A stretch of DNA of 33,758 bases. It comes from Verrucomicrobiota bacterium. GTDB taxonomy: Bacteria; Verrucomicrobiota; Verrucomicrobiia; Verrucomicrobiales; DEV007. The translations under genes were made by a program, and so were the position numbers. Shown here one piece after another: positions 17,443 through 33,611 of the stretch. The notes beneath the pieces were generated by a model, which saw only the letters and a program-made list of their open reading frames with translations, was not told where the DNA came from and ran no database searches. Position 1 is the stretch's first letter. Every line of letters starts with the position of its first letter. The DNA lies in NCBI GenBank assembly GCA_024277195.1, contig JAJRVS010000350.1, positions 1-33,758 on the forward strand. The letters run 5' to 3'.

Positions 17443-17472
17443 TGGATCATTCTAGTCCCGCTTTGTTCAAAC

Positions 17473-17504
17473 AAAAAAGCCCGCCCGAATTTCTCAGGCG
17501 AGCC
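17473..17504 (-). terminator. Rho-independent terminator of the trypsin-fold gene
   Basis: Read on the minus strand, a GC-rich stem formed by 17497-17504 and 17479-17486 (GGCTCGCC with GGGCGGGC, one G-T pair) is followed by six T residues (17473-17478). It lies 38 bases after the stop of the gene at 17543. It also separates that gene from the SGNH-like gene, which starts at 17421. Confidence 0.8.
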
Positions 17505-17542
17505 GATATAGAGATGGCACGAAGCCCTTAAAACCGCAGCAG

Positions 17543-18391
17543 CTACTTACCCGAAGTCGCTTTCTCCATCGCCAGATTGGCCATGACCTGAATCGAACCT
17601 GCTGACAACGTCCCCAAAATACCCGAGCGTTTGCCGTCCACAATGCGCTCCAGAGTCACTCCGATCGGACTGCCACCCAAAGTAAACACCGGGATACCCT
17701 GAGCCGTGCCTGCAGTAGTGACGTAATAGGTGCGGTCACCTTTAAACACGCCAGTGATATGACCCATGATCACCGTTGGCATATAGCTATAAACCGCCGA
17801 TGACCGGGACAGACCCACCACATTGTCCGCAGCTTTAGCAGTAGTGGCAAATTTGGAAAGATCCACGGCAGTGAATGTTTTACCTAATTTTTTAGCGGCG
17901 GCCGCATCTGGCAAAACAAAAGCCAGATCGATCTCAGGACGTTGAGCGATCACCCGGCCAGGCAGCACCACCGCATCTCCGTAGCTGATTTCCACTTTAG
18001 AAAACTCACTCTTGGCCGAGGCCACCGTCACGATCTTCGGCTTGCCGTCTTTACCTTGAAGGCGCACCTTTTGCTGCACCAAACCCACACTCGCGTCCAA
18101 TGCACTGTTGGAGCATACGATCAAGCCATTTGGGAAAACCGTGGTGCCGAGCGTTCTGCGCTGCTGGGTTTTAGTCGGCAAAGGATCTCCGTCCGTGGTC
18201 GTGACCACCTTGCTCTCTGCTGTCACCACCACCAGAGCCCCCTTGTATTTATCCATCAGGGATCTCGCCGCATCATTCACCTCTTTTTGCGCGGATGCCT
18301 GATGGGGCAAAGCAAAAGCGAATGCGATTGAAAATAAAGCAGCTGCCTTGATAAGACCGCCAACTGAAAACGAAGGACTATTTTGTAACAT
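17543..18391 (-). CDS. Exported trypsin-fold protein, likely inactive protease
   Basis: 282 aa with a signal peptide (about 1-34, ending ASA). The pattern resembles S1/DegP-type proteases. GTTVFPNGLIVCSNSALD (82-99) corresponds to the strand-turn that normally ends in the catalytic His; here Ser96 stands at that place. IDLAFVLPD (154-162) matches the Asp region with Asp155 kept. TTAGTAQGIPVFTLGGSPIG (226-244) matches the GNSGGP region with Gln231 at the catalytic serine position. Two of three triad residues therefore seem lost, and it is better viewed as a binding protein. This alignment was made by eye. It is a monocistronic gene between two intrinsic terminators. No partner is evident. Confidence 0.6.
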   Translation of the reverse strand: MLQNSPSFSVGGLIKAAALFSIAFAFALPHQASAQKEVNDAARSLMDKYKGALVVVTAESKVVTTTDGDPLPTKTQQRRTLGTTVFPNGLIVCSNSALDASVGLVQQKVRLQGKDGKPKIVTVASAKSEFSKVEISYGDAVVLPGRVIAQRPEIDLAFVLPDAAAAKKLGKTFTAVDLSKFATTAKAADNVVGLSRSSAVYSYMPTVIMGHITGVFKGDRTYYVTTAGTAQGIPVFTLGGSPIGVTLERIVDGKRSGILGTLSAGSIQVMANLAMEKATSGK

Positions 18392-18518
18392 TGATCCGAA
18401 TAGGTTGAGTATGAGAGAAAATTAGCAGAAAGAAGGCATGTTATAACGGGTTCCCCCAGCCTTCCAAAGCTTTTTTGTTATTAAAACGGGTTTTGTGACG
18501 AAAATCCGCTCATTAAGC

Positions 18519-18558
18519 AAAAAAAAGCCCTCGAACTCGGTTTCCCAAGCATGAGAGC
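18519..18558 (-). terminator. Rho-independent terminator after rpsD
   Basis: On the minus strand, an outer stem from 18553-18558 with 18527-18532 (GCTCTC with GAGGGC) encloses an inner stem CTTGG/CCGAG with a GAAA loop. It is followed by eight T residues (18519-18526). It lies about 60 bases downstream of the rpsD stop and ends the ribosomal cluster, so no rpoA follows. Confidence 0.8.
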
Positions 18559-18620
18559 TCTTGTTTTGCCCATCCTTGCCTTCGCTTTTACAAAGACACG
18601 GTGGGCGCGGTTTTTAGAGA

Positions 18621-19235
18621 TTAACGGGAATACAACTCAACCACCAACTGCTCGTTGACCATTGGGTCGATTTCGTCACGCTCAGGTGCCCGGTTTACGG
18701 TTCCCCTGATCGCGTCGCGATCCATGGTCAACCACTCGGATTCAGGACGTGCCTGGGTAGAATCCAACAAACGCATCGCCAATTGACGTGAACGATTACC
18801 TTCGCTAACGGTGACCACATCACCCGATTTGCACTGGTAAGAAGGAATATCCACTTTCTGGCCATTCACCAGAATGTGACCGTGATTAACAAACTGTCTC
18901 GACGCACGACGAGTCGTTCCCATTCCAAAACGGAAAACAATATTGTCCAAACGCATCTCCAACAATTCCAGCAAAAGCAAACCCGTCACTCCACGGCGAC
19001 GTTGAGCTTCAGCAAAATAACGACGGAATTGTTTTTCCATCACACCATACTGAAAACGCAGTTTCTGCTTTTCAGCCAGGGCGACCGAGTAATCCGATTG
19101 TTTGCGACGACGTCCACCACGGGGTCCGTGCTGTCCGGGGCCGTAAGGGCGACGTTCCAACGCCTTTGAAGGGCCGAACAAAGGCACTCCAAAACGGCGG
19201 TTGATTCTTTCAATGGGTCCAGTGTATCTAGCCAT
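18621..19235 (-). CDS. rpsD: 30S ribosomal protein S4
   Basis: 204 aa. It starts MARYTGPIERINRRFG and contains the S4 RNA-binding domain (about residues 95-160) with RLDNIVFRFGMGTTRRASRQ and the following VNHGHILVNGQKVDIPSY segment. It ends in the usual VVELYSR. The N-terminal region lacks the four zinc cysteines, so it is the zinc-free form. S4 is an early 16S rRNA-binding assembly protein and often the translational regulator of its operon (known from E. coli). It is the last gene of the ribosomal cluster here: a terminator follows, and rpoA and rplQ, which usually come next, are absent. Confidence 0.98.
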   Translation of the reverse strand: MARYTGPIERINRRFGVPLFGPSKALERRPYGPGQHGPRGGRRRKQSDYSVALAEKQKLRFQYGVMEKQFRRYFAEAQRRRGVTGLLLLELLEMRLDNIVFRFGMGTTRRASRQFVNHGHILVNGQKVDIPSYQCKSGDVVTVSEGNRSRQLAMRLLDSTQARPESEWLTMDRDAIRGTVNRAPERDEIDPMVNEQLVVELYSR

Positions 19236-19279
19236 GAGTCTTAATTAGAAAAAATTAATATGAAATGTGATATGAAACC

Positions 19280-19888
19280 CTACACACGACGTGCTTTAGG
19301 TGGGCGACAGCCGTTATGTGGCACCGGAGTGACATCCGTAATCTTGGTGATTTCCACCCCGATCGCCTGAACCGCACGAACCGCAGATTCGCGACCGACA
19401 CCAGGTCCTTTAACCCGCACTTCAGCCTGCTTCAGGCCGTGGCTCATTGCCTGGCGCAGAGCGTCCTGACAAACCAACTGACCCGCGTAAGCGGTGCTTT
19501 TTCTCGATCCACGGAAACCCAGTTTGCCCGAGCTCGACCAACCCAGAGAGTTGCCCTTTTGGTCAGTGATCGTCACGATCGTATTGTTAAAAGTCGCCCG
19601 CACATGAACAATACCCGAGTGCACGTTCTTGCTGCTCTTAGATTTAAGGATCTTCGGTGCATCCGCTTCGCTAGGATCCAACTCCAGGAAAATATCCGCA
19701 GCGGTCTTTTCCTTTTTAGGCTCCTCAGCGACTGGCGCTTGAGTTGCTGCCGGTTTTTCCTCTGCTTTTTCAGCAGGTGCTTTCTCTGCTTTCTCAGCAG
19801 GTGCCGCTGCTGGCGCTTCTTTTGCTTCGACAGCTTTCTCTGCAGCGTCTTTCACCACTTCCTCTTCCTTTTCTGATTCTTCAGCCAT
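19280..19888 (-). CDS. rpsK: 30S ribosomal protein S11 with long acidic N-terminal extension
   Basis: 202 aa, against about 130 in most bacteria. The conserved S11 core runs from about residue 86 ([20 protein letters not shown]) to the [12 protein letters not shown] end. The first 85 residues are low-complexity and rich in Glu, Lys, Ala and Pro with [12 protein letters not shown]-type repeats, and lie in the same open frame. No internal ATG near the core offers an alternative start, since the stretch before KNVHSG has no Met or plain start with a ribosome binding site that I can see; this supports the extension being translated. S11 sits on the 30S platform. The extension probably stays disordered on the ribosome surface. 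It lies 37 bases after rpsM and 44 bases before rpsD. Confidence 0.96.
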
Positions 19889-19925
19889 AATAGATGATCT
19901 TTCTCTGGTCTATAAAATTGCCCGA

Positions 19926-20324
19926 CTACTTAGCGCGCACCACACCAACCGTTCTACGTTTGCCCTTACGGGTACGACTGTTGGTTGAAGTTCTCTGTCC
20001 ACGCACTGGCAAGCCTTTACGGTGACGGATGCCCCGGTAACAGTTGATCGAAGCGATACGCTTCATGTGTCCCTGCAGCTCCCGGCGCAAGTCACCCTCG
20101 ATGAGCAATTTACCGCCTTCACAATTGAGCGTTTCGCTCTCAGTGATCACATGAGCGATTTTGCTGATCTGCTCATCGCTCAATTCTCCGGTGCGAATGC
20201 CTGGTTCAACACCAGCCTGCTCCAAAATTCTTTTCGCCGTTGTCGGGCCAATGCCATAGACGTAAGGCAATGATGCCTCAATCCGTTTTTCGTTTGGTAT
20301 TTCTACTCCTAGCAATCTTGCCAT
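19926..20324 (-). CDS. rpsM: 30S ribosomal protein S13
   Basis: 132 aa. Starts MARLLGVEIPNEKRIEASL. The helix-turn motif YVYGIGPTTAKRIL (about 22-35) is present, and the basic C-terminal tail GQRTSTNSRTRKGKRRTVG is typical of S13. It binds 16S rRNA in the 30S head and contacts the P-site tRNA through that tail. It follows rpmJ by 53 bases in the usual rpmJ-rpsM-rpsK-rpsD order. Confidence 0.98.
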   Translation of the reverse strand: MARLLGVEIPNEKRIEASLPYVYGIGPTTAKRILEQAGVEPGIRTGELSDEQISKIAHVITESETLNCEGGKLLIEGDLRRELQGHMKRIASINCYRGIRHRKGLPVRGQRTSTNSRTRKGKRRTVGVVRAK

Positions 20325-20377
20325 TGTATTTCTATGCCTCCTGGGATGGTAATTCGTTAAATAAAAACTTACTAAAA

Positions 20378-20491
20378 TTATCCCTGACGCTGCTTGTGGC
20401 GCGGGTTGCTACAAATAACACGCACAATGCCGTGTCTGCGAATGATCCGGCATTCGGTGCACATACGTTTTACAGATGGTCTGACTTTCAT
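20378..20491 (-). CDS. rpmJ: 50S ribosomal protein L36
   Basis: 37 aa, read from ATG at 20491 to the TAA at 20378. The sequence begins [19 protein letters not shown] and ends NPRHKQRQG. The zinc ligands Cys11, Cys14, Cys27 and His32 are all present, so it is the zinc-binding form of L36. It is the first surviving gene of the ribosomal block downstream of the inserted nos island, and needs its own promoter or read-through from the 20492-20784 region. Confidence 0.97.
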
Positions 20492-20784
20492 AGTTTTGTT
20501 TGGTGATTTTCCCTGGCCTTCTAGCTGCTCACTCGTGTGAACCGGTTCAATGCTTGATTCAAAATCCTAGCATCTGAAGTCCTTTCCAGCCGTAGCAAAT
20601 ACGGCGGGAGGGAATCTGTATCACAACTTTGCCAAGAGGCAAGCTGTGTTTCCTCTTCAAATGACTGATTTTTATAAATTCTCACCAAATCAAGCTTTTT
20701 GAGCGTATTTTCTATTTGAAACCAGCTATTTTTTTAAAAAATGTATTCAAACAACCGTGACTTCAAGGGAACTCTAATGACTCG
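20492..20784. other. Intergenic region between vapC and rpmJ, must supply rpmJ transcription
   Basis: About 290 bases without a gene. Two hairpins are visible. GCCGTA at 20589-20594 pairs with TACGGC at 20600-20605 (5-base loop). TTGCC at 20629-20633 pairs with GGCAA at 20638-20642 (4-base loop). I could not find a convincing -35/-10 pair on the minus strand. No tRNA and no T-tract terminator is seen. The region should hold the promoter for rpmJ-rpsM-rpsK-rpsD, because vapBC upstream on this strand is a separate toxin-antitoxin unit. Confidence 0.4.
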
Positions 20785-21198
20785 TCACAAGCCCGACTCT
20801 CTCGATCTCCAATTCTCCAACAACAAACCCTCTACCCTTGTGAACTCTTTCACATGATCGGTGACCCATACTAGACTTAGAGCCAGAGCATGGCCAGCCA
20901 ACAGCGTATCATAAGCTCCTATTTTCCTTCCATCAGCTTCCAAATTCACACGAATCCTGGCAGCCGCCTTCGCCGCGTTCACGTTCCACGAAAGCACGTT
21001 CAAAGTATCGCACAGCAACCTTACTTTCTGCAGCTCAGCTTGCGGATCCCTTGATTTATGTGCCCCCGCTTCAAGCTCGAACAACGACACGGTGGAAATC
21101 GCACAGTCGTCAGGCGACATCGATCTGAGCCGGGCGATCACTTCCTCCCGACCCCGCATAACATCGATGCACACATTGGTATCAAGCAAATACCTCAT
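20785..21198 (-). CDS. vapC: VapC-type PIN-domain toxin
   Basis: 137 aa. PIN domain with the expected acidic residues Asp6 (LLDTN), Glu41 (LFELEAGA), Asp97 ([11 protein letters not shown]) and Asp114 (WVTDH), which bind Mg/Mn in this RNase fold. VapC toxins cut tRNA or rRNA when free of VapB (family knowledge). It overlaps the stop of the upstream vapB by four bases. It lies on the same strand as the ribosomal genes, between them and nosZ, and may stabilise the inserted segment. Confidence 0.92.
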
Positions 21199-21434
21199 TT
21201 CCGGATGTTATCATTCGCAACGATATCAGGGGTGACCGGCTGTTCAGGTCGCTCGAAGCCCTCGGCAACCCGTATCTCTTCAAAAAAACCCTCCGGCCAC
21301 TCCCGTTTGGCAACAGGCTCCAACATAACCACCCCACCCTCTCGCCGAATCTCTACCTCACTGCCCTGAAAACGAAACTCCTTCGGAAGCCGAACGGCCT
21401 GCGAACGCCCATTCATAAATAATTTAGCTTTCAT
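21195..21434 (-). CDS. vapB: VapB-type antitoxin (AbrB/SpoVT fold)
   Basis: 79 aa from ATG at 21434. A longer reading from 21518 is possible in the same frame but would start upstream of the promoter, so it is not used. [20 protein letters not shown] followed by [14 protein letters not shown] is the swapped-hairpin AbrB-type DNA-binding domain of VapB. The C-terminal part ([15 protein letters not shown]) fits the toxin-binding tail. It is translated just ahead of vapC with a four-base overlap and probably represses its own promoter. Confidence 0.9.
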
Positions 21435-21470
21435 GGATGATAGTATATACCGTATATACCATTTACTCAA
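21435..21470 (-). promoter_or_regulatory. vapBC promoter with tandem palindromic operator
   Basis: On the minus strand -35 TTGAGT (21465-21470), a 17-base spacer and -10 TATACT (21442-21447) are visible. Two copies of the self-complementary octamer GTATATAC, at 21443-21450 and 21452-21459, cover the spacer and the -10 box. This is a classic place for VapB repression. The -10 box ends only seven bases before the ATG, so the transcript would start at or next to the start codon. Confidence 0.7.
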
Positions 21471-21785
21471 CTGTTTTGAAAGGTGCTCAGAATGCCTCAC
21501 TGCATTTATGCACCCCAACTGGTTTTATTTTAAAATCAGTCATCGTGCCACCGTATTTCTCCACTCAAGCCGCAACCCGTTTTAGCATAGGGGCGATGAA
21601 TCTAAAGGCCTCGACAATTACATCTCCATGAATTCCCAAACCTAGCGGAAAAAAGTGGCAGATCTTCGGCTTTTTTTCACAGCTTGATGCAACCTCACCC
21701 CCCCCCGGTGCGTAACTCTACTGAAGCCCCGTCCCATGACGGATCGCGATTATCAGTATTGACACAAGCAACCAATTAGAAGGCA
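21471..21785 (+). promoter_or_regulatory. Upstream region of the nos operon
   Basis: About 315 bases between vapB and nosZ. Seen here: a weak hairpin (AGCGGAA at 21644-21650 with TTCGGCT at 21665-21671, one mismatch) followed by seven T; a run of nine C at 21698-21706; and a good ribosome binding site AGAAGG at 21778-21783 just before the nosZ ATG at 21786. No convincing FNR/DNR box (TTGAT-N4-ATCAA) was found. TTGAC at 21759-21763 is at best half a site. The nos promoter must lie here, but I cannot point to it. Confidence 0.45.
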
Positions 21786-23681
21786 ATGAAATCATCATCA
21801 AAGGATAAACAAAGCAATCTGGATCAGGCACTGGATCGCCGAAAATTTCTCACCGGAGTCTCACTGGCCGGAGGTGGGGCGGCTCTAGGCGCCATGACTG
21901 GCTGCAATGGCGGCGGCAGCACCGAAAAAAATAGCAAAAATGCCGACACGGCCAAACCACACGCGAACAAAGCTGAGGTGGCTCCGGGAAAATTGGACGA
22001 CTACTACGGCTTTTGGAGCGGTGGACAATCAGGAGAAATTCGCATCCTCGGCATCCCCTCGATGCGGGAGCTAAAACGCATTCCAGTCTTCAACCGCGAT
22101 GCCGCCACCGGATGGGGTGCCACCGATTTCTCCAAGCAACTGCTCAAGGGCTCTCAGTCAGGCGACACTCACCATGTTCACCTATCCTATGACAAAGGCA
22201 CCTATGATGGGCGTTATGTCTTTGTTAATGACAAGTCCCAGGCACGCCTGGCTCGGGTGAACATCAAAACAATGGAGACCGACAAGATCGTCGATATCCC
22301 AAACGCCCAGGGCACTCACGGAATTTTTCCCCAGCGACACAAAACCGGGCTGGTATTCTGCAATTCCGAATTTCGCACGCCGTTGCCCAACGACGGGCGC
22401 GACCTCGACGACCCAAAAAAATACGCTGCCTTGCATACCGCCATCGACGGCGAGACCATGGAGGTTAAGTGGCAGGTCATGATCGAGGGCAATCTCGATC
22501 TTTGTGCTACTGACTACAAGGGCCTCTATTCATTTGCCACCTGCTACAACTCCGAAGGAGCGGTCACGCTGGAGGGCATGATGGCCAACGATCAGGACTA
22601 TTGTTATGTTTTTAACCTCGCCAATATCGAAAAAGCTGTGAAGGGTGGCAAAGGCATAACTTTAGGTGATTCGCCGGTGCCAGTGATCGATGCTCGTGGC
22701 GAGAACAGCAAATTCGTGACCCGTGTTCCAGTGCCCAAAAGCCCCCATGGGGTAAACATTGATCCCACAGGGAAATACGCAATCTGCTCGGGCAAACTCT
22801 CTCCGACTTGTAGCGTCATAGCTATCGACAAGCTAGCTGAGGTATTCTCCGGCAAGATCAAACCCCGCGATTCCGTAGTAGCTGAGCCGGAAGTAGGCCT
22901 CGGACCGCTGCACACAGCCTTCGACGGTAAGGGCAATGCCTACACCTCGATCTTCCTCGACTCGGTGATGACAAAATGGAATATCGCAGACGCACTCAAA
23001 CAGTTCAAGGGGGAGGACGTGAACCCCATCCTTCAGAAAATCGATGTCCACTACCAGGTGGGGCATACCAACGCCTCGATGAGCGAGACTAAAGATGCTG
23101 ACGGCAAATGGCTGGTGGCTCTGTGCAAATTCTCGAAGGATCGCTTTCTCAATGTCGGGTGCCTGCACCCCGAGAACGACCAGTTGTTCGATATCTCCGG
23201 CGAAAAGATGAAGCTTGTTCACGATGGACCAACCTTCCCAGAACCGCATGATGCCGTCATCGTCAAGAGCGACCTGATCCATCCCACTAGCATCCAACCC
23301 CGCACTGATGAGCGCTTCAAAATGTACTCTGATTGGGCCAAAGAGGACGGTGTGGATTTAATGAAAGACAACAAGGTAATCGCCAAAGGCCCCGGCAAAG
23401 TTCGGGTCTACATGACTTCGATGGCACCAAAATTCGGTATGACCGAGTTTCAGGTGAAATCGGGAGATCAGGTGCAGGTGATCATCACCAATCAGGACAA
23501 TGTTGAGGATCTGAGTCACGGATTTTGCGTTCCTCAACACGATGTGAACTTCTTGGTTAATGCTCAGGACACACAGAGCTATACCTTCGTGGCCGGTAAA
23601 CCAGGTCTTTATTGGTACTATTGCCCTTGGTTCTGTCATGCGCTGCACCTTGAAATGCGCGGACGCATGATGGTCAGCTGA
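21786..23681 (+). CDS. nosZ: Nitrous oxide reductase, clade I-like
   Basis: 631 aa. Reduces N2O to N2 in the periplasm with two copper centres. The N-terminus has a twin-arginine motif (DRRKFLTG, 17-24), which is the clade I export route. The seven CuZ histidines are all present: His129 and His130 (DTHHVH), His178, His321, His376, His427 and His488. The CuA ligands are His578, Cys613, Trp615, Cys617, His621 and Met624 (WYYCPWFCHALHLEM). The propeller region reads closely like Pseudomonas stutzeri NosZ as I recall it (AGKLSPTCS-like and VRVYMTSMAP stretches). Just after the Tat hydrophobic region, residues AMTGC (36-40) could be a lipobox, giving a membrane-tethered enzyme. It is followed by nosR, not preceded by it, which is unusual for clade I operons. 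Confidence 0.97.
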   Translation: MKSSSKDKQSNLDQALDRRKFLTGVSLAGGGAALGAMTGCNGGGSTEKNSKNADTAKPHANKAEVAPGKLDDYYGFWSGGQSGEIRILGIPSMRELKRIPVFNRDAATGWGATDFSKQLLKGSQSGDTHHVHLSYDKGTYDGRYVFVNDKSQARLARVNIKTMETDKIVDIPNAQGTHGIFPQRHKTGLVFCNSEFRTPLPNDGRDLDDPKKYAALHTAIDGETMEVKWQVMIEGNLDLCATDYKGLYSFATCYNSEGAVTLEGMMANDQDYCYVFNLANIEKAVKGGKGITLGDSPVPVIDARGENSKFVTRVPVPKSPHGVNIDPTGKYAICSGKLSPTCSVIAIDKLAEVFSGKIKPRDSVVAEPEVGLGPLHTAFDGKGNAYTSIFLDSVMTKWNIADALKQFKGEDVNPILQKIDVHYQVGHTNASMSETKDADGKWLVALCKFSKDRFLNVGCLHPENDQLFDISGEKMKLVHDGPTFPEPHDAVIVKSDLIHPTSIQPRTDERFKMYSDWAKEDGVDLMKDNKVIAKGPGKVRVYMTSMAPKFGMTEFQVKSGDQVQVIITNQDNVEDLSHGFCVPQHDVNFLVNAQDTQSYTFVAGKPGLYWYYCPWFCHALHLEMRGRMMVS

Positions 23682-23728
23682 CCCTGCATGCCTTTGCCAG
23701 GAGAAAGAACCATTACAACCGTTCCACC

Positions 23729-25807
23729 TTGCATCTAATCAGATCCAGAATGACCCAGATTGGTGTCCTATTGGCGTGCCTGCTGTTCCTCATAACTGGG
23801 GAGCAGTTACACGCTCAGGCCATTCAAATTACAGATCTTACTGATGCGCAATTAAAGGAGGTGCTTCCAAGGGCCGAGTCCTTCCGAGAGGTCCCCAACC
23901 AGCCTTACCAGGAGGGAGTTGATGTTGACGGCAAGGTTGCCGGCTGGGTGGTGTTATCCACTGACGTCGTCTCGATCAAGGGCTACTCCGGCAAGCCACT
24001 TGTGACCCTTGTAGGTCTCGATCCGGCGGGCGTCATCAGCGGTGCCAAGATAATCCACCACAGTGAACCCATCATCCTACTGGGCATCCCAGAAAAAAAA
24101 CTTGCTGATTTCGTCAACTTCTACATCAATAAACGAGCCGATGCCCAGATCACCGTGGGCACCGCTGACGCAGATTCTCTGGGTGTAGCTGCTGTTTCTG
24201 GAGCAACCGTCACGGTGCTGGCTGAGAACTCTACCATCCTCGACACAGCGCGTTCCCTCGGAGCTGCGATGGGGATTTTGGAGCTCCAAACCACCCTGCC
24301 TGGAGATTTTGTCGAGTCAGAACAGGATTGGTCCTTTGCTACGATGAAACGCAAAGGGGTGTTCGGCCATTTGCGGGTCAGCGAGAATCAAATGGGCATC
24401 AGTGACAGCGATGATGCCTTCGTCGACTTGCTCTTCACCATCGCTGACGCCCCTCAAATCGGTCGCCCCTTGTTGGGCGAGGGCACCTACGCGCATCTCA
24501 TCGGGCAATTGAAACAAGGCGAGCACCTTGTGGTTATTCTTGGCAACGGTTCGGGCTCCTTCAAGGGATCGGGATTTGTGCGCGGCGGCGTTTTCGACCG
24601 GGTTCACCTGCGACAGAAATTGCTTACCTGCATGTTCGCCGATACCGACTACACCAACCTGACTGCTCTCGCGGCCCCCGACGCCCCTCAGTTCAAGGAA
24701 GGTGCTGTTTTCATCAGCCGAGGAGCCGAGATCGACCCGGGGCGTCCCTTCGATTTAATTTTTCTGGGTAGCTTCTATGACAAAAAAAGCGCCTTCTCCC
24801 GAGAGTTCCACAGTTTCAGCAGCACACACCGGCTACCGAAATCAATATACCGGATCGAGGGTCCCGATCCCGACTCCCTGATCTGGCGCAGCGCCTGGGC
24901 AGGGCGTAAACTCGAGCTAGCAGTTCTCTCCATCGTGCTCATCAGTGTGCTGGGACTCTTCGTCCAGCGCAGATGGCTCACCGGATCGGTGAAGCGGCTA
25001 AAGCTTATCCAGATCACAGTGTTACTGGCCTCCTTCTTAGTGCTGGGATTATTACTCTCCGCCCAACCATCCATTACCCAGATACTCACTCTGGTCGGCT
25101 CCATCATCAGTGAGTGGGATGGGAAGCTTTTTCTCTCCGAGCCAATACTGTTTGTGAGCTGGATATTCATAGCTATCGTATTATTCATCTGGGGCCGGGG
25201 AGTCTTTTGTGGCTGGGTCTGCCCCTTTGGCTCCCTCAGTGAACTTCTCAACCATCTGGGCAAATGGCTAAAAATTCCACAATTCGAATTACCTGAAAAG
25301 TGGCACTTGAGGCTGCGCTACCTACGTTATCTTATATTTGCCGGATTAGTTCCTGCGTTCATCTACTCACCCGAGCTAGGCGAAAAGCTAGCCGAGATCG
25401 AACCCTTCAAAACGACCTTCCTGTTGGTTCCCTGGCAACGATCCTGGGGCTTCTTCAGCTATTGGCTAATATTGATGGTCATTTCACTCTTCTGGTTCCG
25501 CCCCTTCTGCCGTTACCTTTGCCCTCTGGGGGCCGCCCTTGCCCTACCTTCGTTCCTGCGCATCTCCGCCCCCCGGCGGCGCAAGTTCTGCTCTAGTTGC
25601 ACCATCTGCGCCGACATCTGCGAACCCCAAGCCATCCGTCCCGATCGCAGTATCGACTCCATGGAATGCTTGAACTGCATGCATTGCGAAGCTAACTATT
25701 ATGCAGATAAAATATGCCCACCATTGATCGGATTGAAAAAACTCGATACCGGCCCCGATGATTCGGAGCGTCGCAAACGACTCGAAAATTACAAAAAGCG
25801 CACCTGA
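23729..25807 (+). CDS. nosR: NosR, flavin/iron-sulfur membrane protein for N2O reductase
   Basis: 692 aa from TTG 23729; ATG at 23750 (seven codons later) is an equally possible start, and neither has a clear ribosome binding site. A signal peptide comes first. A periplasmic FMN-binding domain follows, with the SGAT motif (157-160), whose Thr is the usual covalent flavin site. C-terminal membrane segments then carry CGWVCP and CRYLCPLGAA motifs. At the end a ferredoxin motif CSSCTICADIC and a second group CLNCMHC...CPP bind Fe-S clusters on the cytoplasmic side. NosR is needed for nosZ expression and electron supply (known from Pseudomonas). ApbE/NosX, which would load the flavin, is not in the window. 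Confidence 0.95.
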   Translation: MHLIRSRMTQIGVLLACLLFLITGEQLHAQAIQITDLTDAQLKEVLPRAESFREVPNQPYQEGVDVDGKVAGWVVLSTDVVSIKGYSGKPLVTLVGLDPAGVISGAKIIHHSEPIILLGIPEKKLADFVNFYINKRADAQITVGTADADSLGVAAVSGATVTVLAENSTILDTARSLGAAMGILELQTTLPGDFVESEQDWSFATMKRKGVFGHLRVSENQMGISDSDDAFVDLLFTIADAPQIGRPLLGEGTYAHLIGQLKQGEHLVVILGNGSGSFKGSGFVRGGVFDRVHLRQKLLTCMFADTDYTNLTALAAPDAPQFKEGAVFISRGAEIDPGRPFDLIFLGSFYDKKSAFSREFHSFSSTHRLPKSIYRIEGPDPDSLIWRSAWAGRKLELAVLSIVLISVLGLFVQRRWLTGSVKRLKLIQITVLLASFLVLGLLLSAQPSITQILTLVGSIISEWDGKLFLSEPILFVSWIFIAIVLFIWGRGVFCGWVCPFGSLSELLNHLGKWLKIPQFELPEKWHLRLRYLRYLIFAGLVPAFIYSPELGEKLAEIEPFKTTFLLVPWQRSWGFFSYWLILMVISLFWFRPFCRYLCPLGAALALPSFLRISAPRRRKFCSSCTICADICEPQAIRPDRSIDSMECLNCMHCEANYYADKICPPLIGLKKLDTGPDDSERRKRLENYKKRT

Positions 25808-25816
25808 AAGACTGCT

Positions 25817-27061
25817 TTGAACCATCATATTCCATACATCCTTACGGTTTTGACTGCGATGCTTCTGACGGCATCTGCTGTCGCAGCCTCCCAGCACCGC
25901 CCCGCCACCGCAGCGGAACTGATCGCCGTTTTATCTAACTGCGAAAATGGTGACGAAATAGTGCTGGAGAAAAGAGTTTTTATCGGCAATTTTCGCGTCA
26001 CCAATAGTATTACAATCACTGGCAAAGGGAGCATACTCGATGGCGACGGTCAGGGAACCGTGCTCACCCTCGATGCTCCTAATATCGTGGTAAATGGAAT
26101 TCAAGTGCGCAACAGTGGCACCGACCTCAGCGGACCCGATTGCGGAATCTATCTCAGTCCCGCCGCCGCGGGAAGCCGCATCTCTTCAAACCTGATTGAG
26201 CACTGCGCCTTCGGCATCTGGGTACACGAATGCCAGAGCGTCACCATCGAAAACAACCGAGTCATGGGAATCAAGACAGGGCACACCTCTAACCGTGGCA
26301 ACGGCATCCAGCTTTTCGACAGCACTAAAGTGACGGCACGCGGCAACACGGTGCGCGACGGGAGGGACGGGATCTACATTTCAGCCACCGAGGACTCCCT
26401 CATCGAGAACAACCACATCGAGGGAGCGCGCTACGGCATCCACTACATGTATTCCTATAGCAACACCGTGCGCGGAAATATTTGTCGCAACAATGGCAAC
26501 GGCTACGCACTGATGGAAAGCAAGCACCTTATCGTCGAGAACAATCTGTCCGAGAACAACAAGGGACAGGGTCTCCAGTTTCGCGATGCCCAATACTGCA
26601 CGATTCGAAACAACCGGCTTATCGGCAATGCCGAAGGGCTTTTTTTCTATTCCAGCACCAACAACAAGATCCTCGATAACTTGGTGAAAAACAACAAGGT
26701 GGGAGTCAAAATCTGGGCGGGCAGCCTTCGCAACCAAGTCGAGGGCAACCGCTTCATCGGTAACAGTCAGCAGGTTTTTTATGTCGGAACCACAGAGATT
26801 GAATGGGGCAGCGATAAACGCGGCAACTACTGGAGCGACTATCTCGGCTGGGATCAGGATGGCGACGGCATCGGAGACCGACCTTACCGAGTCAACTCGT
26901 TCCACGCCCGCCTGCTCTACCGCTTTCCTGCTGCCGCCCTATTGATGAACAGCCCTAGCCTGGAAACCCTTTCCCTGCTGGAGCGCCGCCTCCCCGTGTT
27001 GCGCACCCCCACGATCACTGACCGGAAACCACTAATGAACAACCCTGCTTCTGATGAATAG
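25817..27061 (+). CDS. nosD: NosD, periplasmic copper-site maturation protein
   Basis: 414 aa, TTG start at 25817, nine bases after nosR. That start yields a full signal peptide (about 1-24, ending AVAA); an ATG at 25859 would cut it short. The body is a right-handed beta-helix with regular N-x-x-x-x-N repeats such as IENNRVMGI, ARGNTVRDG, IENNHIEGA and VRGNICRNN, as in CASH/NosD proteins. A conserved NosD-like end GNYWSDYLGWDQDGDGIGD (about 336-354) precedes a short tail. NosD works with the NosFY transporter to build the CuZ centre, probably by delivering sulfur or copper. The stop overlaps the nosF start by eight bases. Confidence 0.95.
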   Translation: MNHHIPYILTVLTAMLLTASAVAASQHRPATAAELIAVLSNCENGDEIVLEKRVFIGNFRVTNSITITGKGSILDGDGQGTVLTLDAPNIVVNGIQVRNSGTDLSGPDCGIYLSPAAAGSRISSNLIEHCAFGIWVHECQSVTIENNRVMGIKTGHTSNRGNGIQLFDSTKVTARGNTVRDGRDGIYISATEDSLIENNHIEGARYGIHYMYSYSNTVRGNICRNNGNGYALMESKHLIVENNLSENNKGQGLQFRDAQYCTIRNNRLIGNAEGLFFYSSTNNKILDNLVKNNKVGVKIWAGSLRNQVEGNRFIGNSQQVFYVGTTEIEWGSDKRGNYWSDYLGWDQDGDGIGDRPYRVNSFHARLLYRFPAAALLMNSPSLETLSLLERRLPVLRTPTITDRKPLMNNPASDE

Positions 27062-27971
27062 CATCGCCTTCCACCAAATTACAAAATGTTTCGGACGGCT
27101 GTGCGCATTGAACGAAGTCAGCCTCACTCTGAATTCGTCTTGCGCCATGCTTCTTGCCGGGCCGAACGGAGCTGGGAAATCAACTCTCATTAACATTCTC
27201 TTGGGTCTTTATCTACCGGACGGCGGGGGAATACATGTCGACGGTTTGCGCCTTCCTATCGACAACAAACTCAAAGCTCGCATGGGCTATTTGCCAGAAA
27301 GCGTAGCTTTCAGCGAGAATCTCTCCGGTTGGGCGATGATGTCGTTTTTTGCTCGCGCACGGGGCATCGGACGTAAAAGGATGCACGAGGTCATGGAGCG
27401 AATCGGATTGAGCCAGGCCTCCCGGCGAGCCATATCTGGCTATTCCAAGGGAATGCGACAGCGCCTAGCGCTCGGAATCTCCGTTCTGCACGAGCCCGAG
27501 GTTTTAATTTTAGACGAACCTACTAGTGGACTAGATCAAGAAGGGCTAGGCGTCCTTTGGTCATTGCTTGATGAATGGCGCGAAAAAGGTCGCCTGATAC
27601 TAATCTCATCTCACGACCTCGGCATCCTAGAAAAACGAGTGGACAAATTCTGTATCCTACGCGCAGGCTCTGTGGTGGCTTGCGACGAACCGCCAGCCCT
27701 CCGTCGACAGGCCTCTCTTCCCGTCAAAGTTCGCTTCACCTTGAAGGAGGATTACAGCAGGCAGACGGATTTCATCGAGGGGCTCCGAGATCATTTCCCG
27801 ACCTTGCAGATTGTTCAAGACGGCTGTTCGGTTCGAATAGAGATGGAGCCTGAACGGATCGTAGATTTGATGGCAAGTGCATTTTCCAATGGTCACCCTC
27901 TTATCGAATCCATGCGTGTCACGGAACCTGAAATGGAGAATATTTACGAGCACCTGCTCATGTCAGCATGA
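27054..27971 (+). CDS. nosF: NosF, ABC transporter ATPase
   Basis: 305 aa. Walker A GPNGAGKST (36-44), ABC signature YSKGMRQRL (as in NosF-type ATPases), Walker B VLILDEPTSGLD and the switch His in ISSHDLG are all present. It powers the NosY permease and, with NosD, takes part in maturing the CuZ site of NosZ. The C-terminal 80 residues are the accessory domain of CcmA/NosF-type proteins. It starts inside the end of nosD and overlaps nosY by four bases. Confidence 0.96.
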   Translation: MNSIAFHQITKCFGRLCALNEVSLTLNSSCAMLLAGPNGAGKSTLINILLGLYLPDGGGIHVDGLRLPIDNKLKARMGYLPESVAFSENLSGWAMMSFFARARGIGRKRMHEVMERIGLSQASRRAISGYSKGMRQRLALGISVLHEPEVLILDEPTSGLDQEGLGVLWSLLDEWREKGRLILISSHDLGILEKRVDKFCILRAGSVVACDEPPALRRQASLPVKVRFTLKEDYSRQTDFIEGLRDHFPTLQIVQDGCSVRIEMEPERIVDLMASAFSNGHPLIESMRVTEPEMENIYEHLLMSA

Positions 27972-28768
27972 TGGGAAAAGTAGCTAGAGCCCTTATTTGG
28001 CACGAGTTTTTAGAACGCAGCCGCGATCGGTGGATTTTGGTATTAACGCTGTTGTTCGTGCTCTTGAGTTCGGGCATCACCCTCTACGGAAAAGCCGGAG
28101 ACATGTCCCAGGGCGAAGTGGTCGGCCCCAGTCTGGTAACGCTCTCATCACTTCTCATCCCCCTGGTCGGACTGCTTCTCGGATTCGACGCCGTTGTCGG
28201 CGAGCGCGAACGGCGCACCCTCAATCTCCTTCTGTCGATGCCGATTCATCGATGGGAACTCATTGTGGCGAAATTTCTTGGCCGCTTCATCCCACTGGCC
28301 TTCGCCATTCTGGCTGGTATTTTTGCTGCTAGTTTCATGATGGAAGATGGTTGCGAAGCTGGACTGAACCGCCTGATCATTCCCTCGCTCCTACTTGGAG
28401 CCAGCTTTCTCGCTTTGGGAATTTTGGTTTCCAGCGTGGTGCTGCGGCAGGCTACTGCTTCCAGTCTGCTCATCACGATATGGTTCCTACTGGTATTCTT
28501 CTACGATCTTGGAATCCTCGGTGCATTGGTGGTAACTGATGGGGCCCTGCCCGATTCACTCTGTGCTGGTCTGGTGGTGGCGAATCCCGTCGGCTTGTAT
28601 CGCATCGTTATGATCCAGCGTTTCGGCGGGGACGATTTTTTCTCGGGATTTGGAATGGATGCGTATATCCCAGGACCAGGCGTCGAAGCCCTCGTTTGGT
28701 CGGGATGGATCGTAGGGGCACTCCTGTTGAGCGTATTTTTTCTCCATCTTAAACGAGAACGGACATGA
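27968..28768 (+). CDS. nosY: NosY, ABC transporter membrane subunit
   Basis: 266 aa with about six membrane segments (near 22-38, 54-75, 101-117, 135-155, 165-190 and 240-258). GERERRTLNLLLSMPIHR (about 78-95) is the cytoplasmic coupling-helix region of ABC-2 permeases. Together with NosF it forms the transporter that acts with NosD. Four-base overlaps on both sides (27968-27971 and 28765-28768) show tight translational coupling. Confidence 0.94.
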   Translation: MMGKVARALIWHEFLERSRDRWILVLTLLFVLLSSGITLYGKAGDMSQGEVVGPSLVTLSSLLIPLVGLLLGFDAVVGERERRTLNLLLSMPIHRWELIVAKFLGRFIPLAFAILAGIFAASFMMEDGCEAGLNRLIIPSLLLGASFLALGILVSSVVLRQATASSLLITIWFLLVFFYDLGILGALVVTDGALPDSLCAGLVVANPVGLYRIVMIQRFGGDDFFSGFGMDAYIPGPGVEALVWSGWIVGALLLSVFFLHLKRERT

Positions 28769-29256
28769 GAAAACTTATCCTAATCCTGTGTTTCTCACTT
28801 CTATCGACGGCTTGCCGACGAGATCAAGTCACACGTCAAAACCACACGGCGACCGTAGCTGAAAATGCCGACACGGAGACCTGTGCCGCCTGCGGTATGG
28901 TGGTGCGCGAGCAACCGGCTCCACGAGGTCAGGTGATTCACCGCGACGGAACCCACAGCTTCCTATGCTCTATCGGCGATCTGGTACATTTTCTCGCCGT
29001 GCCTTCGCCCAGCGGCAAGCCTCTGATGGTTTACACCGAGGTGATGCCTGATGATTTCGAGGCCAATATACGCAGCACTTCGTGGCAACCGTGGGGTAAA
29101 GCGAGCGAACTCTTTTTTGTCACCGACATCGAGCTTACTGCCGTGATGGGAAAACCTGCGCTAACCTTTCGCACTCGGGAAGCCGCCGAAAAATCCTCCA
29201 AAAAGCTCACCGGGAAAGTGGTGATTTTTAATCAATTGAGAACAGGAAAACAATGA
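28765..29256 (+). CDS. nosL: NosL, copper-binding lipoprotein
   Basis: 163 aa. Lipoprotein signal LLSTAC with Cys17 as the lipidated residue. The motif CAACGMVVREQPAPRGQVIH (from about 38) and the HRDGTHSFLCSIGDL stretch match NosL, which binds Cu(I) and hands it to NosD or apo-NosZ. It sits next to nosY in the order usual for nos operons. Four-base overlaps tie it to nosY and to the following cytochrome gene. Confidence 0.94.
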   Translation: MRKLILILCFSLLSTACRRDQVTRQNHTATVAENADTETCAACGMVVREQPAPRGQVIHRDGTHSFLCSIGDLVHFLAVPSPSGKPLMVYTEVMPDDFEANIRSTSWQPWGKASELFFVTDIELTAVMGKPALTFRTREAAEKSSKKLTGKVVIFNQLRTGKQ

Positions 29257-29681
29257 ACAATAAACAACAAATGAGATACTATTCAATATTTGCCGTGGCA
29301 GTCGGCAGCCTGCTTACAGCTTGCGGTAATTCCAAATCTGAATCAACCGTTACTGCTACTACGGAACCCGGGGTCGCCGCAGCCAATCAACCCGCCGTCT
29401 CCCACCCCTTGCCAGGAGACCCCGAAGCCGGGAAGGAGATTTACTTGAGAGCTTGCTCCGCGTGCCACCAACCCGATGGATCAGGACTGAACGGTATGCT
29501 TGCTGCTAACTTCGTTTCCGACAAAACCCGGCTAGCTAAGCCTAACGAAGTTCTTCTGAATTCGATTCGCAACGGGATCATCGCTGAGAACAAAGTCATG
29601 CCCCCGCATAAGGATATTCTCTCCGATCCTGAAATCAAAAATGCCCTTTCCTATATTCGAAAAACTTTTGGTGACCAATAG
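29253..29681 (+). CDS. Monohaem cytochrome c lipoprotein, last gene of the nos operon
   Basis: 142 aa. The lipobox LLTAC (Cys25 lipidated) is followed by a flexible Ser/Thr/Ala/Pro linker to about 50. A single class I cytochrome c domain follows with CSACHQPDGSG as haem site and a Met ligand likely in KVMPPHKD (about residues 110-117). Length fits a small tethered electron carrier. The start overlaps nosL by four bases; a later ATG at 29271 is possible but less well placed. It is the probable electron donor to the CuA site of NosZ, as in other nos operons that end in a cytochrome. It could also serve other periplasmic reductases. Confidence 0.88.
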   Translation: MNNKQQMRYYSIFAVAVGSLLTACGNSKSESTVTATTEPGVAAANQPAVSHPLPGDPEAGKEIYLRACSACHQPDGSGLNGMLAANFVSDKTRLAKPNEVLLNSIRNGIIAENKVMPPHKDILSDPEIKNALSYIRKTFGDQ

Positions 29682-29851
29682 TAACGAGAAGTAACAATTG
29701 ATTTTACAGTCGAATTCCAGAGGTAGGCTTTTCACCCAGTGGATACCCTTGCTTACCGAGGAATATGATAATTGATGAAAGCCAATTTCTGCTCAGAGGT
29801 GACTGGTGGTGCGTGCGCGATTGGACGAGGCTAAAGTTCAGAGTGACTAAT

Positions 29852-29871
29852 CATAGGCTGGAAAGCCCATG
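29852..29871 (-). terminator. Hairpin downstream of map, possible transcript end
   Basis: A 20-base element with an 8-base stem (one G-T pair) and a TTCC loop lies 15 bases after the map stop codon. No T tract follows on the minus strand, so it is not a standard intrinsic terminator. It could stabilise or shorten the mRNA end left when the ribosomal operon was split. The rest of 29682-29886 shows nothing I can support. Confidence 0.4.
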
Positions 29872-29886
29872 CTCCGAACTACGAAG

Positions 29887-30693
29887 CTACGCCATTACCG
29901 ACTTCGCCAGGGTCAAATTCGGCACGGTGCGTTCCCGCGCCGTGAGAATTTCCGGTTGGTCATCGGTGATCAAAACGGTGTGTTCAAAGTGGGCCGATAA
30001 AGAGCGATCCGCGGTTTCCACCGTCCATTGATCGTCCAAAACGCGCACATCCGGCCCTCCGGCGTTCACCATTGGTTCGATCGCCAGGATCATGCCAGCG
30101 CGCAAACGCGGCCCTTTGCCCATTGAGCTTTTGTCCCAATGATTGGGAACCTGTGGCTCTTCATGTAAATTTTTTCCCACCCCGTGGCCGACAAACTCCT
30201 TCACTACGGTGAAACTAAAAGTATCAATGCATTTTTCGACTGCCCCACACAACTGAGCCAGACGCACCCCATCACGCGCTTGATCGATTGCCGCCTGTAA
30301 AGATTCTTCAGTAGCAAACAGCAGACGCTCGACTTCAGGCTCCATCGCTCCCACCGGGATCGTTTTTGCGTTATCACCCACCCAGCCATCCTTAATGATG
30401 CCCACGTCGAGTTTGACAATATCCCCGTATTGGATCACCCGCTCTCCGCCGATGCCATGCACCACCTCTTCGTTCATCGAAATGCAGGTATAACCGGGAA
30501 AACCGCGATAACCCAAAAAAGCACTCACACAACCACGCTCGGCAATGAACTGCGCAGCGGCCTCATCCACTTCGCCGGTTGTTACACCCGGTCGAATCTC
30601 CTTGGCCGTCAACTTCAGCACCTCGGCAGCGATCTCTCCTGCCCGGCGCATGTAGTCCAGTTGGCGTCCTTTGCGAATCGGTATGGCACTCAT
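29887..30693 (-). CDS. map: Methionine aminopeptidase, type I
   Basis: 268 aa. Removes the N-terminal methionine of new proteins. The metal-binding residues are visible: two Asp in KLDVGIIKDGWVGDNAKT, His in EFVGHGVGKNLHEEPQVPN, Glu in ILAIEPMV and Glu in AHFEHTVLI. There is no N-terminal zinc finger, as in E. coli. It lies 51 bases after secY in the usual spc-operon place. In the normal order rpmJ would follow at once; here the next gene on this strand is vapB, about 8.5 kb away, and rpmJ is about 9.4 kb away. Confidence 0.97.
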   Translation of the reverse strand: MSAIPIRKGRQLDYMRRAGEIAAEVLKLTAKEIRPGVTTGEVDEAAAQFIAERGCVSAFLGYRGFPGYTCISMNEEVVHGIGGERVIQYGDIVKLDVGIIKDGWVGDNAKTIPVGAMEPEVERLLFATEESLQAAIDQARDGVRLAQLCGAVEKCIDTFSFTVVKEFVGHGVGKNLHEEPQVPNHWDKSSMGKGPRLRAGMILAIEPMVNAGGPDVRVLDDQWTVETADRSLSAHFEHTVLITDDQPEILTARERTVPNLTLAKSVMA

Positions 30694-30744
30694 TCCCCTG
30701 ATCTCCTCCCTGACATTTCACCCATTCGCCTTAGCTACCCAACA

Positions 30745-32247
30745 TCAGCCTTTTGCCACTATTGAATAAGTCACCCCAACGATGACCAAAACTGCCACCA
30801 CCAAATAAAGCCACACCATGCCGCTGCCTGATGCTACGGCGGTTCCTGAATTGCGATCAAAACGTCCGCGGATTTTCCCTTTACGCAGGAAGCCGTCATA
30901 ATGGCGTTGAATCAAATGAGTCTCGACCTGGCGCATGATGTCCAACAACACACCCACCAGAATCAACAAACTGGTTCCACCGAAAAACTGCGCAGCTTGA
31001 TAAGGGACACCCATCTGGCGACTCAACATGCTCGGCAATACCGCAATAATGGTGAGGAAAATCGCTCCAGCAAAAGTCAGGCGACTCATCGTGCGGTCAA
31101 GAAACTCAGCCGTTGGTTTGCCCGGACGCACACCTGGCAAATAACCACCGTTGCGCTTGAGATCCTCCGCGATCTGGTTGGGCTGGAACATCGTCGCCAC
31201 CCAGAAGTATGAGAAAAAGAAAATCATCAGTGCTGACAAGGTATAATATAACCAACCACTGCCACCGAGATTAGCCGCCAGTTTATTGGCCCATGCCGCA
31301 TCAGGGAAAGCAAACATCAAAATCTGTGAAGGGAACAACAGGATGGCCTGGGCAAAAATGATCGGCATCACTCCGGCGTAGTTGACCTTCAAAGGCATGT
31401 ATTGAGTTTGGCCGCCATAAACCTTACGCCCCACCACTCGTTTGGCGTAGTGCACACTGAGCCGTCGCTGCGCCTGGGTGATCGAGATCACACCGGCGAT
31501 CACAAAGAACAAAAAGGCAATCAAAGCCACCAACATCAGCGGTTTCATTGGGTCCTCCGCAGCGCCTTCGACAAAAGTCACATAAACCTGACCCAAAGCC
31601 GCGGGCAAAGCGGAAATAATATTCGCGGTGATGATCAAGGAGATACCATTGCCGATCCCACGATCGGTTATCTGATCACCCATCCACATCAGCAACAAAG
31701 TGCCCGCGGTGATCACGATAATCGTAACCAAAATAAACATCGTGCCTCCGTCCGGCACCAGTTCCCGCGTATCATTCTGATCAATGATACCTCGCAGCAA
31801 AAAGTTCGACTGCGGGTTAATCAAAGATTTGGCCAGCATGTAACCCTGGAAAACACACAATATGATCGCGACATAACGCGTATACATATTGATCTTCTGG
31901 CGACCACCCTCTTCACGTGAAAGCTTGCCCAGACCAGGCACCACTGCGGTCATCAACTGCATCATGATCGAAGCACTGATGTAGGGCATGATACCCAAAG
32001 CAAAAACCGCACAATTTTGCAAACCACCACCACTGAACACATTCATCAAAGCCGCCATCGCAGCGACCCCTTGGCTTTCCCCCGCTCTTTCAACGCCCTC
32101 CTTCAACCAAGCCTGCAACACCGTCACATCCACTCCCGGAAGAGTGATCGACGCACCGAGCCGGATAATCACCAGCATCAACAGCGTGAACATAATACGC
32201 TGCCGCAGCTCGGGAATCTTAAAGGAGTTTGTAAATGCGGATATCAT
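30745..32247 (-). CDS. secY: Protein translocase subunit SecY
   Basis: 500 aa, somewhat longer than the usual 430-450. It has about ten membrane segments. The plug and first segments are in the region PELRQRIMFTLLMLVIIRLG and the following GVDVTVLQAW. The cytoplasmic loop with RRLSVHYAKRVVGRKVYGG (about 264-282) is typical of SecY, and the late loop RPGKPTAEFLDRTMSRLTF is well kept. With SecE it forms the channel for Sec-dependent export and membrane insertion. The gene is preceded by rplO (95-base gap) and followed by map. Confidence 0.98.
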   Translation of the reverse strand: MISAFTNSFKIPELRQRIMFTLLMLVIIRLGASITLPGVDVTVLQAWLKEGVERAGESQGVAAMAALMNVFSGGGLQNCAVFALGIMPYISASIMMQLMTAVVPGLGKLSREEGGRQKINMYTRYVAIILCVFQGYMLAKSLINPQSNFLLRGIIDQNDTRELVPDGGTMFILVTIIVITAGTLLLMWMGDQITDRGIGNGISLIITANIISALPAALGQVYVTFVEGAAEDPMKPLMLVALIAFLFFVIAGVISITQAQRRLSVHYAKRVVGRKVYGGQTQYMPLKVNYAGVMPIIFAQAILLFPSQILMFAFPDAAWANKLAANLGGSGWLYYTLSALMIFFFSYFWVATMFQPNQIAEDLKRNGGYLPGVRPGKPTAEFLDRTMSRLTFAGAIFLTIIAVLPSMLSRQMGVPYQAAQFFGGTSLLILVGVLLDIMRQVETHLIQRHYDGFLRKGKIRGRFDRNSGTAVASGSGMVWLYLVVAVLVIVGVTYSIVAKG

Positions 32248-32342
32248 CTTGGTAACTTAGGTCAGAAATCAAAAATACAGAATAGGTGCGAGCTTTTAAG
32301 AACCCTCGGTCCAAAGCTCATACGCCGTCAGCTCACAGATCA

Positions 32343-32789
32343 CTAGGCCGAAACGATTTCGCCACCAGCTTTCTCGATTTTTTCACGTGCTGTAGCAGAA
32401 ATCTTGTCCGCTTGCACTTTCAGCTTCTTCGACAAATCTCCGTCGCCCAGAATTTTTACTCCGGTTTGCGAACCTTTCACCAATCCCACCGCTCTCAGAG
32501 CCGCTTCGTCGACATTCGCACCAGCTTCGAAGAACACTTCCAAGTCAGACACATTCAGAATCGCATAAACTTCCTTATGCCGTCCGTTGGTGAATCCTTT
32601 TTTAGGCAAACGACGAGCGATAGGCATCTGCCCACCCTCGAAACCAGGCCGGATCGAAGCTCCCGAACGGGATTTCTGTCCTTTGTGACCTTTGCCAGAT
32701 GTTTTGCCTTTACCGGAGCTTTCGCCACAGCCGAGACGCTTACGGCGATGTTTGGTGCCGTGTTTTGGTTTTAAATCGTTTAGTCGCAT
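32343..32789 (-). CDS. rplO: 50S ribosomal protein L15
   Basis: 148 aa. It starts MRLNDLKPKHGTKHRRKRLG, followed by GSGKGKTSGKGHKGQKSRSG-like Gly/Lys-rich sequence that reaches into the 23S rRNA. The IARRLPKKGFTN stretch and the KILGDGDLSKKLKV region near the end are typical. It follows rpsE by 54 bases with no rpmD between them. Confidence 0.97.
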   Translation of the reverse strand: MRLNDLKPKHGTKHRRKRLGCGESSGKGKTSGKGHKGQKSRSGASIRPGFEGGQMPIARRLPKKGFTNGRHKEVYAILNVSDLEVFFEAGANVDEAALRAVGLVKGSQTGVKILGDGDLSKKLKVQADKISATAREKIEKAGGEIVSA

Positions 32790-32843
32790 GATGGTCGAAT
32801 TCCTCCAGCTTAATAGTTCAAATTTATCGCAATCAAACCGGCC

Positions 32844-33611
32844 TTACAGCGCGGCGTTTTCCTTAATCTTTTTCCCACGCAGCTTCCAGATCTGCTCTTT
32901 GGTGCGCAAAGACTGAAGCGCTTTCAAAGTCGCTTTGACGACATTGTTGTGATTGTTGGATCCCATCGATTTGGCCAATACATCTTTGATGCCTGCCGCT
33001 TCCACCACCGCGCGAACCCCACCACCGGCGATGATTCCCGTTCCCGGAGAAGCTGGACGAAGCATTACCCGACCGCCACCAAACTCACCAATCACCGCAT
33101 GGGGGATGGTATTGCCTTTCAGCGCGACGGGCACCATTGATCTTTTAGAGATTTCGCTGCCTTTACGAATGCAATCCGCCACTTCGTTGGCTTTACCAAA
33201 ACCGTAACCCACATTGCCTTTTTGATCACCACTGACCACCAATGCGCTGAAGCTGAAACGACGTCCACCTTTCACCACTTTAGCACAACGGTTGATGAAG
33301 ACCACTTTCTCCATCAGTTCCTCTTCTTCGTCCTCCGTCTGGTATTGTTTGAGTTTTTCCTCTGCTTTTTTCAGCACTGCTGAAGCAGGTTTCTCGGCAG
33401 GATCCTTTTTTTCCTCCTTGGCCGCAGGCGCTGCTTCTTCAGCAGGCTTTTCCTCGGTTTTCGGCTCAGCTGCCGGAGCCGCTGCTGCCACTTCCTTCTC
33501 AGGAGTCACCTCAGCTTTCGCTTCAGGTTTTTGCTGTTCCGCAGTCTCAGCCACTTCAGCTTCAACCTCTTTTTCGGACTCTTCCGGTTTATTGGTATCG
33601 TTATCGCTCAT
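32844..33611 (-). CDS. rpsE: 30S ribosomal protein S5 with long acidic N-terminal extension
   Basis: 255 aa, against about 165 in most bacteria. The S5 core starts near residue 98 ([21 protein letters not shown]) and includes [34 protein letters not shown] and the [15 protein letters not shown] end. Before it lie about 95 residues rich in Glu, Lys, Ala and Pro, low in complexity, much like the extension of S11 in this cluster. S5 takes part in decoding accuracy and 30S assembly. The start at ATG 33611 follows the rplR stop by 18 bases, which supports translation of the extension. Confidence 0.97.

Follow-up and report, generated by a model that had tools for sequence, protein, structure and literature searches.

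In the clade I nos operons of Pseudomonadota, the genes stand in the order nosRZDFYLX. The available parts of two papers describe the nitrous oxide reductase NosZ as the only known biological sink of N2O (PMC11237620, PMC13122619), and according to the second of them clade I is commonly identified with Pseudomonadota (PMC13122619); a NosZ with a Tat/lipobox signal was proposed for haloarchaea in the part of PMC8301774 that is available. The window studied here (the whole analysed stretch of 33,758 nucleotides, contig JAJRVS010000350.1 of assembly GCA_024277195.1 from a Verrucomicrobiota bacterium) contains a complete gene set for reducing nitrous oxide, a greenhouse gas, to nitrogen gas, of a nos type found otherwise mainly in Myxococcota and Proteobacteria. 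Very probably, this is a complete nosZ-first clade I operon, acquired horizontally as one intact block by a few Verrucomicrobiota from a Myxococcota/Acidobacteriota-type pool and inserted at different places. The enzyme is an ordinary one in an unusual host and place, and its operon is a variant of a known one.

The open reading frames and their NCBIfam and Pfam profile matches gave the order nosZ-nosR-nosD-nosF-nosY-nosL-cytochrome c at 21786–29681, with all seven genes on the plus strand, exactly as the original prediction, made from the letters of the window, had read it. NosZ (21786–23681, 631 aa) carries the twin-arginine motif RRKFLTG, confirming the Tat signal noted earlier, followed by a lipobox-like MTGC. 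The next gene, nosR (23729–25807, 692 aa, TTG start as listed), encodes an FMN/4Fe-4S membrane protein with FMN_bind and Fer4_5 matches, the flavin motif SGAT at 157, CxxxCP at 494 and 594 and CxxCxxCxxxC at 621; the presence of NosR, also claimed before, thus stands, with a match to NF046105 of 542 bits that lies under the cut-off of 1000. Further downstream are nosD for the periplasmic copper-maturation protein (25817–27061; TIGR04247 409 bits, cut-off 300; PF05048), nosF for an ABC ATPase (27054–27971; PF00005 and operon position), nosY for an ABC-2 permease (27968–28768; PF12679 and operon position), nosL for a copper chaperone with the lipobox STAC (28765–29256; PF05573 and sequence) and a gene for a mono-haem cytochrome c with the haem motif CSACH and the lipobox LTAC (29253–29681; PF13442 and sequence).

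The profile scores of NosZ clearly indicate its class: 921 bits with the Tat-type model TIGR04244 (cut-off 625). Membership in clade II (Sec) was rejected with 473 bits on TIGR04246 (cut-off 625), and membership in the lactonase-type clade III with 192 bits on NF052460 (cut-off 700). The closest solved relative is the nitrous-oxide reductase 9f8x (810 bits); in the alignment to it, the histidine motifs of CuZ, the lysine motif FSKDR and the CuA motif CPWFCHALHLEMRGRM, which we take to comprise the CuZ and CuA ligand residues, are all kept. In the rooted tree NosZ falls with clade I (support 100 against an 11-row outgroup of verrucomicrobial Sec-type NosZ), and the Tat model was preferred by all six members of its branch and the sister group that were scored (6/6), so the clade I assignment of the original prediction holds on both counts.

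The Verrucomicrobiota background, likewise predicted, is borne out by the congener G001 (DAOUQC010000029.1, 'Verrucomicrobiota bacterium'). Among 57 relatives including the window's own genome (G000), clade I-type NosZ was found in G000 and G001 only, and these are also the two carriers among the 74 genomes of the family. A phylum sample of 387 genomes gave any NosZ match at 1e-30 in 11, the window's own being the only one of clade I type; eight other full-length verrucomicrobial NosZ score 817–900 on the Sec model and two partial ones likewise prefer it, six phylum-sample matches (L095, L096 and L101–L104) standing outside the clade-model scoring. No second NosZ was found in the window's genome, and a third congener, G002, whose genome is 73% complete, gave no NosZ match. 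Two family members (G013 and G003; loci L005 and L006) carry clade II NosZ, so both types occur within one family.

The NosZ tree comprised 91 rows and was rooted on the 11 verrucomicrobial Sec-type rows, with L037 left out for its shortness and twelve further loci because they were duplicate, split or partial; the locus set represents the best 80 of 279 relatives, and the gene order and lipobox counts given below apply to these near relatives only. The window, the G001 locus (L013) and a locus of an Akkermansiaceae MAG (L014) form a clade (support 99) within a branch of 22 rows (support 99), of which the other 19 are labelled Myxococcota (14), Acidobacteriota (one), Bdellovibrionota (one) or proteobacterium (two), or belong to an unlabelled MAG (one). 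A joint tree of five proteins (31 rows, after removal of six loci in which under four of the five genes were present) agrees with this placement. Whether NosZ would fall into clade II or onto a vertical branch of Verrucomicrobiota was checked, and it did neither; together with the patchy presence of the block and the clade II type of NosZ elsewhere in the phylum, the tree supports the horizontal transfer proposed in the original prediction. The close likeness to Pseudomonas NosZ, proposed there as well, proved relative only, since Pseudomonas-type sequences are 53–58% identical and the non-verrucomicrobial members of the branch 64–79%. Placement of the verrucomicrobial trio just outside the other 16 members was not rejected by the AU test (p 0.096), which makes the nesting among Myxococcota, and any donor deduced from it, tentative. 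From the comparison with G001 to that with L014, dN rises 2–7 fold in the seven nos genes, as against 12–16 fold in secY, rplO and rpsE; a rise so much smaller in the nos genes indicates transfer among Verrucomicrobiota too.

A compositional sign of foreign origin was ruled out. The GC and codon comparison with the flanks that the original prediction had suggested does not mark the block as foreign: its GC of 0.530 compares with 0.524 and 0.513 for the flanking DNA, and 22% of randomly drawn gene sets reach its codon distance. Being like the rest of the window in both respects, the block gives no information on its origin by this check. The same likeness would fit clade I NosZ as an ancestral verrucomicrobial trait, lost in nearly all lineages and vertical in these genomes, and so would the union of the three verrucomicrobial loci in one supported clade; yet such an ancestry would have to accommodate presence in only two family genomes and one genome of the phylum sample, nos proteins of G000 and L014 far closer than the housekeeping proteins predict, and a clade that sits in a mainly Myxococcota branch, and we hold it very improbable.

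The position of nosR behind nosZ had been correctly read, and nosZ does lead the operon, but the rearrangement deduced from it does not hold as a local event. Among the scorable rows, nosZ stands before nosR throughout the 22-row branch (21/21) and the sister group of 7 rows (6/6), which makes 27/27 among 29 rows; in the remaining 51 rows, nosR comes first in 48 of 49 scorable ones, and in the one that deviates it lies on the opposite strand. The locus of a Bathymodiolus symbiont (L082) has nosR and nosZ on opposite strands. The distribution corresponds to one change on the tree, and a local nosZ/nosR rearrangement is thereby ruled out; the order, fixed in the branch and its sister group, arrived with the block and is an inherited mark of the branch. 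There is a real relocation, but it is that of the whole nos block.

The flanks of the block, a point absent from the original prediction, are the spc and alpha ribosomal-protein operons. On the left are the alpha-operon genes rpmJ (20378–20491, read by eye from the sequence), rpsM, rpsK and rpsD (18621–20491, minus strand, the others by Pfam), and on the right the spc-operon genes map, secY, rplO and rpsE (29887–33611, minus strand, NCBIfam and Pfam). Ribosomal proteins S5 (255 aa, 32844–33611) and S11 (202 aa, 19280–19888), both on the minus strand, have long alanine/glutamate-rich N-terminal extensions. Relative to the congeners G001 and G002, the segment 20686–29910 between map and rpmJ is inserted and includes, at its left end, a vapBC toxin-antitoxin pair (20785–21518, minus strand; toxin NF047863 115.5 bits, not reaching the cut-off of 140, and PF01850; antitoxin PF04014) besides the nos block. 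A blastn search and alignment showed window positions 13559–20685 and 29911–33206 to be contiguous in G001 (L106, 5130–12255 and 12307–15587, with a gap of 51 bases), and the G002 flanks are contiguous across the site likewise (L110). By a hand tally, rpsM and secY share a contig in 23 of 36 family genomes, lie on separate contigs in 10 and lack an rpsM match in 3; the gap between them is 10.4 kb in the window's genome versus about 1.06–1.88 kb in the other 22 (two with a truncated gene). In other families of the order, 20 of the 21 genomes gave both matches, always on separate contigs or more than 150 kb apart, so the junction breaks readily over a longer time scale. A search of the insert for a mobility gene or an end repeat found none; the 228 bases at 29683–29910, whose source was sought, are single-copy in the genome and absent from G001 and G002, and promoter and terminator scans gave results near chance (11 versus 7.4 and 15 versus 10.2 expected).

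The ribosomal-operon insertion was seen in one draft genome of 422 contigs, and an assembly or binning chimera, with the nos block coming from elsewhere in the genome or from another organism, has to be considered, the more so as the site is empty in both congeners. Such a chimera would require two false joins within 9.2 kb, though, and the block is 84% identical to that of the congener and hence fits the genus; since, in addition, the genome contains no second NosZ and the nos site of G001 is also empty in it, a chimeric junction appears highly unlikely. In this genome, the nos block lies, along with vapBC, between the spc and alpha operons and tail-to-tail with map, any way in which it moves being conjectural.

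In G001, the nos block, of 84% identical DNA, is located on another contig (L108/L109). The shared part corresponds to 21688–29682 of the window (blastn), starting 98 bases 5' of nosZ and ending with the cytochrome gene; the region upstream of nosZ (21688–21785, plus strand) thus includes the common left edge, the similarity to L109 stopping at 21688. The stretches on either side of the G001 block form one contiguous sequence in the window's genome (L125), where the same place holds an intact 874-codon gene from a PVC-type haem-binding family (L125, 12391–15015); remnants of this gene in G001 encode residues 304–566 before the block and 844–874 after it (L108, 11429–12151; L109, 387–479). With the window's site empty in G001 and the gene at the G001 site intact in G000, each genome has the other's site unfilled. 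In the Akkermansiaceae MAG, the block occupies a third site, between argC-like and terC-like genes.

Divergence at fourfold sites between G000 and G001 is 0.41 in the seven nos genes versus 0.49 in 23 core genes (p 0.012); being like that of the core or slightly below it, it suggests that the block has been in the genus for no longer than the two species have been separate. These values also fit one acquisition in the ancestor of the genus followed by relocation. Within the horizontal acquisition favoured here, such a single entry with later transposition inside the genus and separate acquisitions by G000 and G001 are two versions, neither contradicting the general reading. The former, to which the synonymous divergence near that of the core genes lends support, has in our estimate close to an even chance: since each site is intact in the other genome, it needs a third, unseen ancestral site or a transfer between species, and G002, incomplete as its genome is, shows no NosZ. 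The presence of one block at different sites in two congeners provides a tractable case of respiratory-operon mobility.

The signal peptide of NosZ shows a second feature absent from the original prediction, a lipobox. The N-terminus reads RRKFLTGVSLAGGGAALGAMTGC, where MTGC begins 19 residues after RR. Scored after inspection of the N-termini, the combination of a Tat motif and a lipobox-like cysteine is present in 20 of the 22 rows of the branch, in none of the 7 rows of the sister group and in one of the other 51 (one of these unscorable); an Alphaproteobacteria MAG (L044) has the single lipobox-bearing NosZ of the nosR-first group. The same pattern search found a lipobox in NosL of 16 of 20 loci, and the terminal cytochrome c has one in the window and in all seven other loci where the cytochrome was found (7/7). 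A limited literature search recognised no description of a Tat/lipobox NosZ in bacteria. From the lipoboxes, a known enzyme system is predicted to occur here in a membrane-tethered form. NosZ would be folded with copper, exported by Tat and probably lipid-anchored, judging from its lipobox; NosDFY and NosL would serve the assembly of CuZ, electrons might reach CuA from NosR and the lipoprotein cytochrome c, and N2O would be reduced to N2, provided that the genes are expressed and the enzyme active. A wider proposal, which we put forward tentatively and consider somewhat less probable than its negation, is that of a distinct bacterial branch of clade I whose NosZ and NosL, joined in part of the members by a dedicated cytochrome c, would all be lipoproteins, making N2O respiration a membrane-tethered unit, and whose compact Z-R-D-F-Y-L(-c) block would move between phyla and re-insert at new sites, even between ribosomal operons. 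The lipobox branch offers a testable prediction on the location of the enzyme and its electron source.

The window's genome has other denitrification genes as well. One encodes a copper nitrite reductase with a fused cytochrome c (360 bits, cut-off 296); a nitric oxide reductase of the quinol type is divided between two contigs (phmmer to 3ayf, 4.8e-86), and the window itself encodes a NapA-like enzyme (359 bits versus a NapA cut-off of 904). The NirK (L139, 1072–2571) has its cytochrome c fusion at the C-terminus and a lipobox-like cysteine at the N-terminus; searches of G001 and G469 found no NirK. The Nap-like cluster (2301–12511, plus strand) comprises a cytochrome with four haem-domain matches, the molybdoenzyme far under NapA cut-offs, more than one copy of NapG-like and NapH-like proteins and an ORF of 511 aa without a Pfam match. 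It lies on other contigs in G001 and G002, which makes its joining to the ribosomal region another synteny break; at this second break, a Zeta-toxin-like and ParD-like pair (12600–13507, minus strand) mirrors vapBC at the nos insert. With NirK, qNor, Nap-like and NosZ genes together, the organism may, on gene content, be a complete denitrifier. A Verrucomicrobiota genome with this gene set and a clade I NosZ means that the NosZ clade alone is no guide to the taxon.

Comparison with the described systems places the locus as follows. The available part of PMC8301774 presents a Tat/lipobox signal on the clade I-type NosZ of Haloferax mediterranei with a predicted membrane anchor, as in the window; the host there is archaeal, and the prediction is in silico in both cases. 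Non-ribosomal genes between operons of the str-S10-spc-alpha cluster, as in the window, are described in the accessible text of PMC8046335; the insertions examined there were judged unlikely to be long-distance transfers, whereas in the window the insert is a laterally acquired respiratory operon. The clade II (Sec) NosZ of other Verrucomicrobiota (L003, L004, L093, L094, L097–L100) catalyse the same reaction, and several of them have a lipobox-like cysteine at the N-terminus as well, but they are 33–40% identical to the window's NosZ, lack the Tat motif and score 817–900 bits on the Sec model. The nosZ-first clade I clusters of Myxococcota and Acidobacteriota (L016, L017 from Sulfidibacter corallicola, L023, L026, L030 and L043) share with the window the Z-R-D-F-Y-L order (6/6), a Tat and lipobox NosZ of 64–79% identity and, except for L017, which gave no cytochrome c match, the terminal cytochrome c; they differ in phylum, and the locus stretches compared contain no ribosomal-operon match. 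The clade I operon of Pseudomonadota (Pseudomonas stutzeri NosZ, e.g., PDB 3sbp) has, like the window, a Tat-exported NosZ with all CuA and CuZ ligand motifs, NosR, NosDFY and NosL; in the window, however, nosX is not among the genes found, NosR scores under the NCBIfam cut-off, nosZ leads in place of nosR, the NosZ signal includes a lipobox, and a lipoprotein cytochrome c closes the operon.
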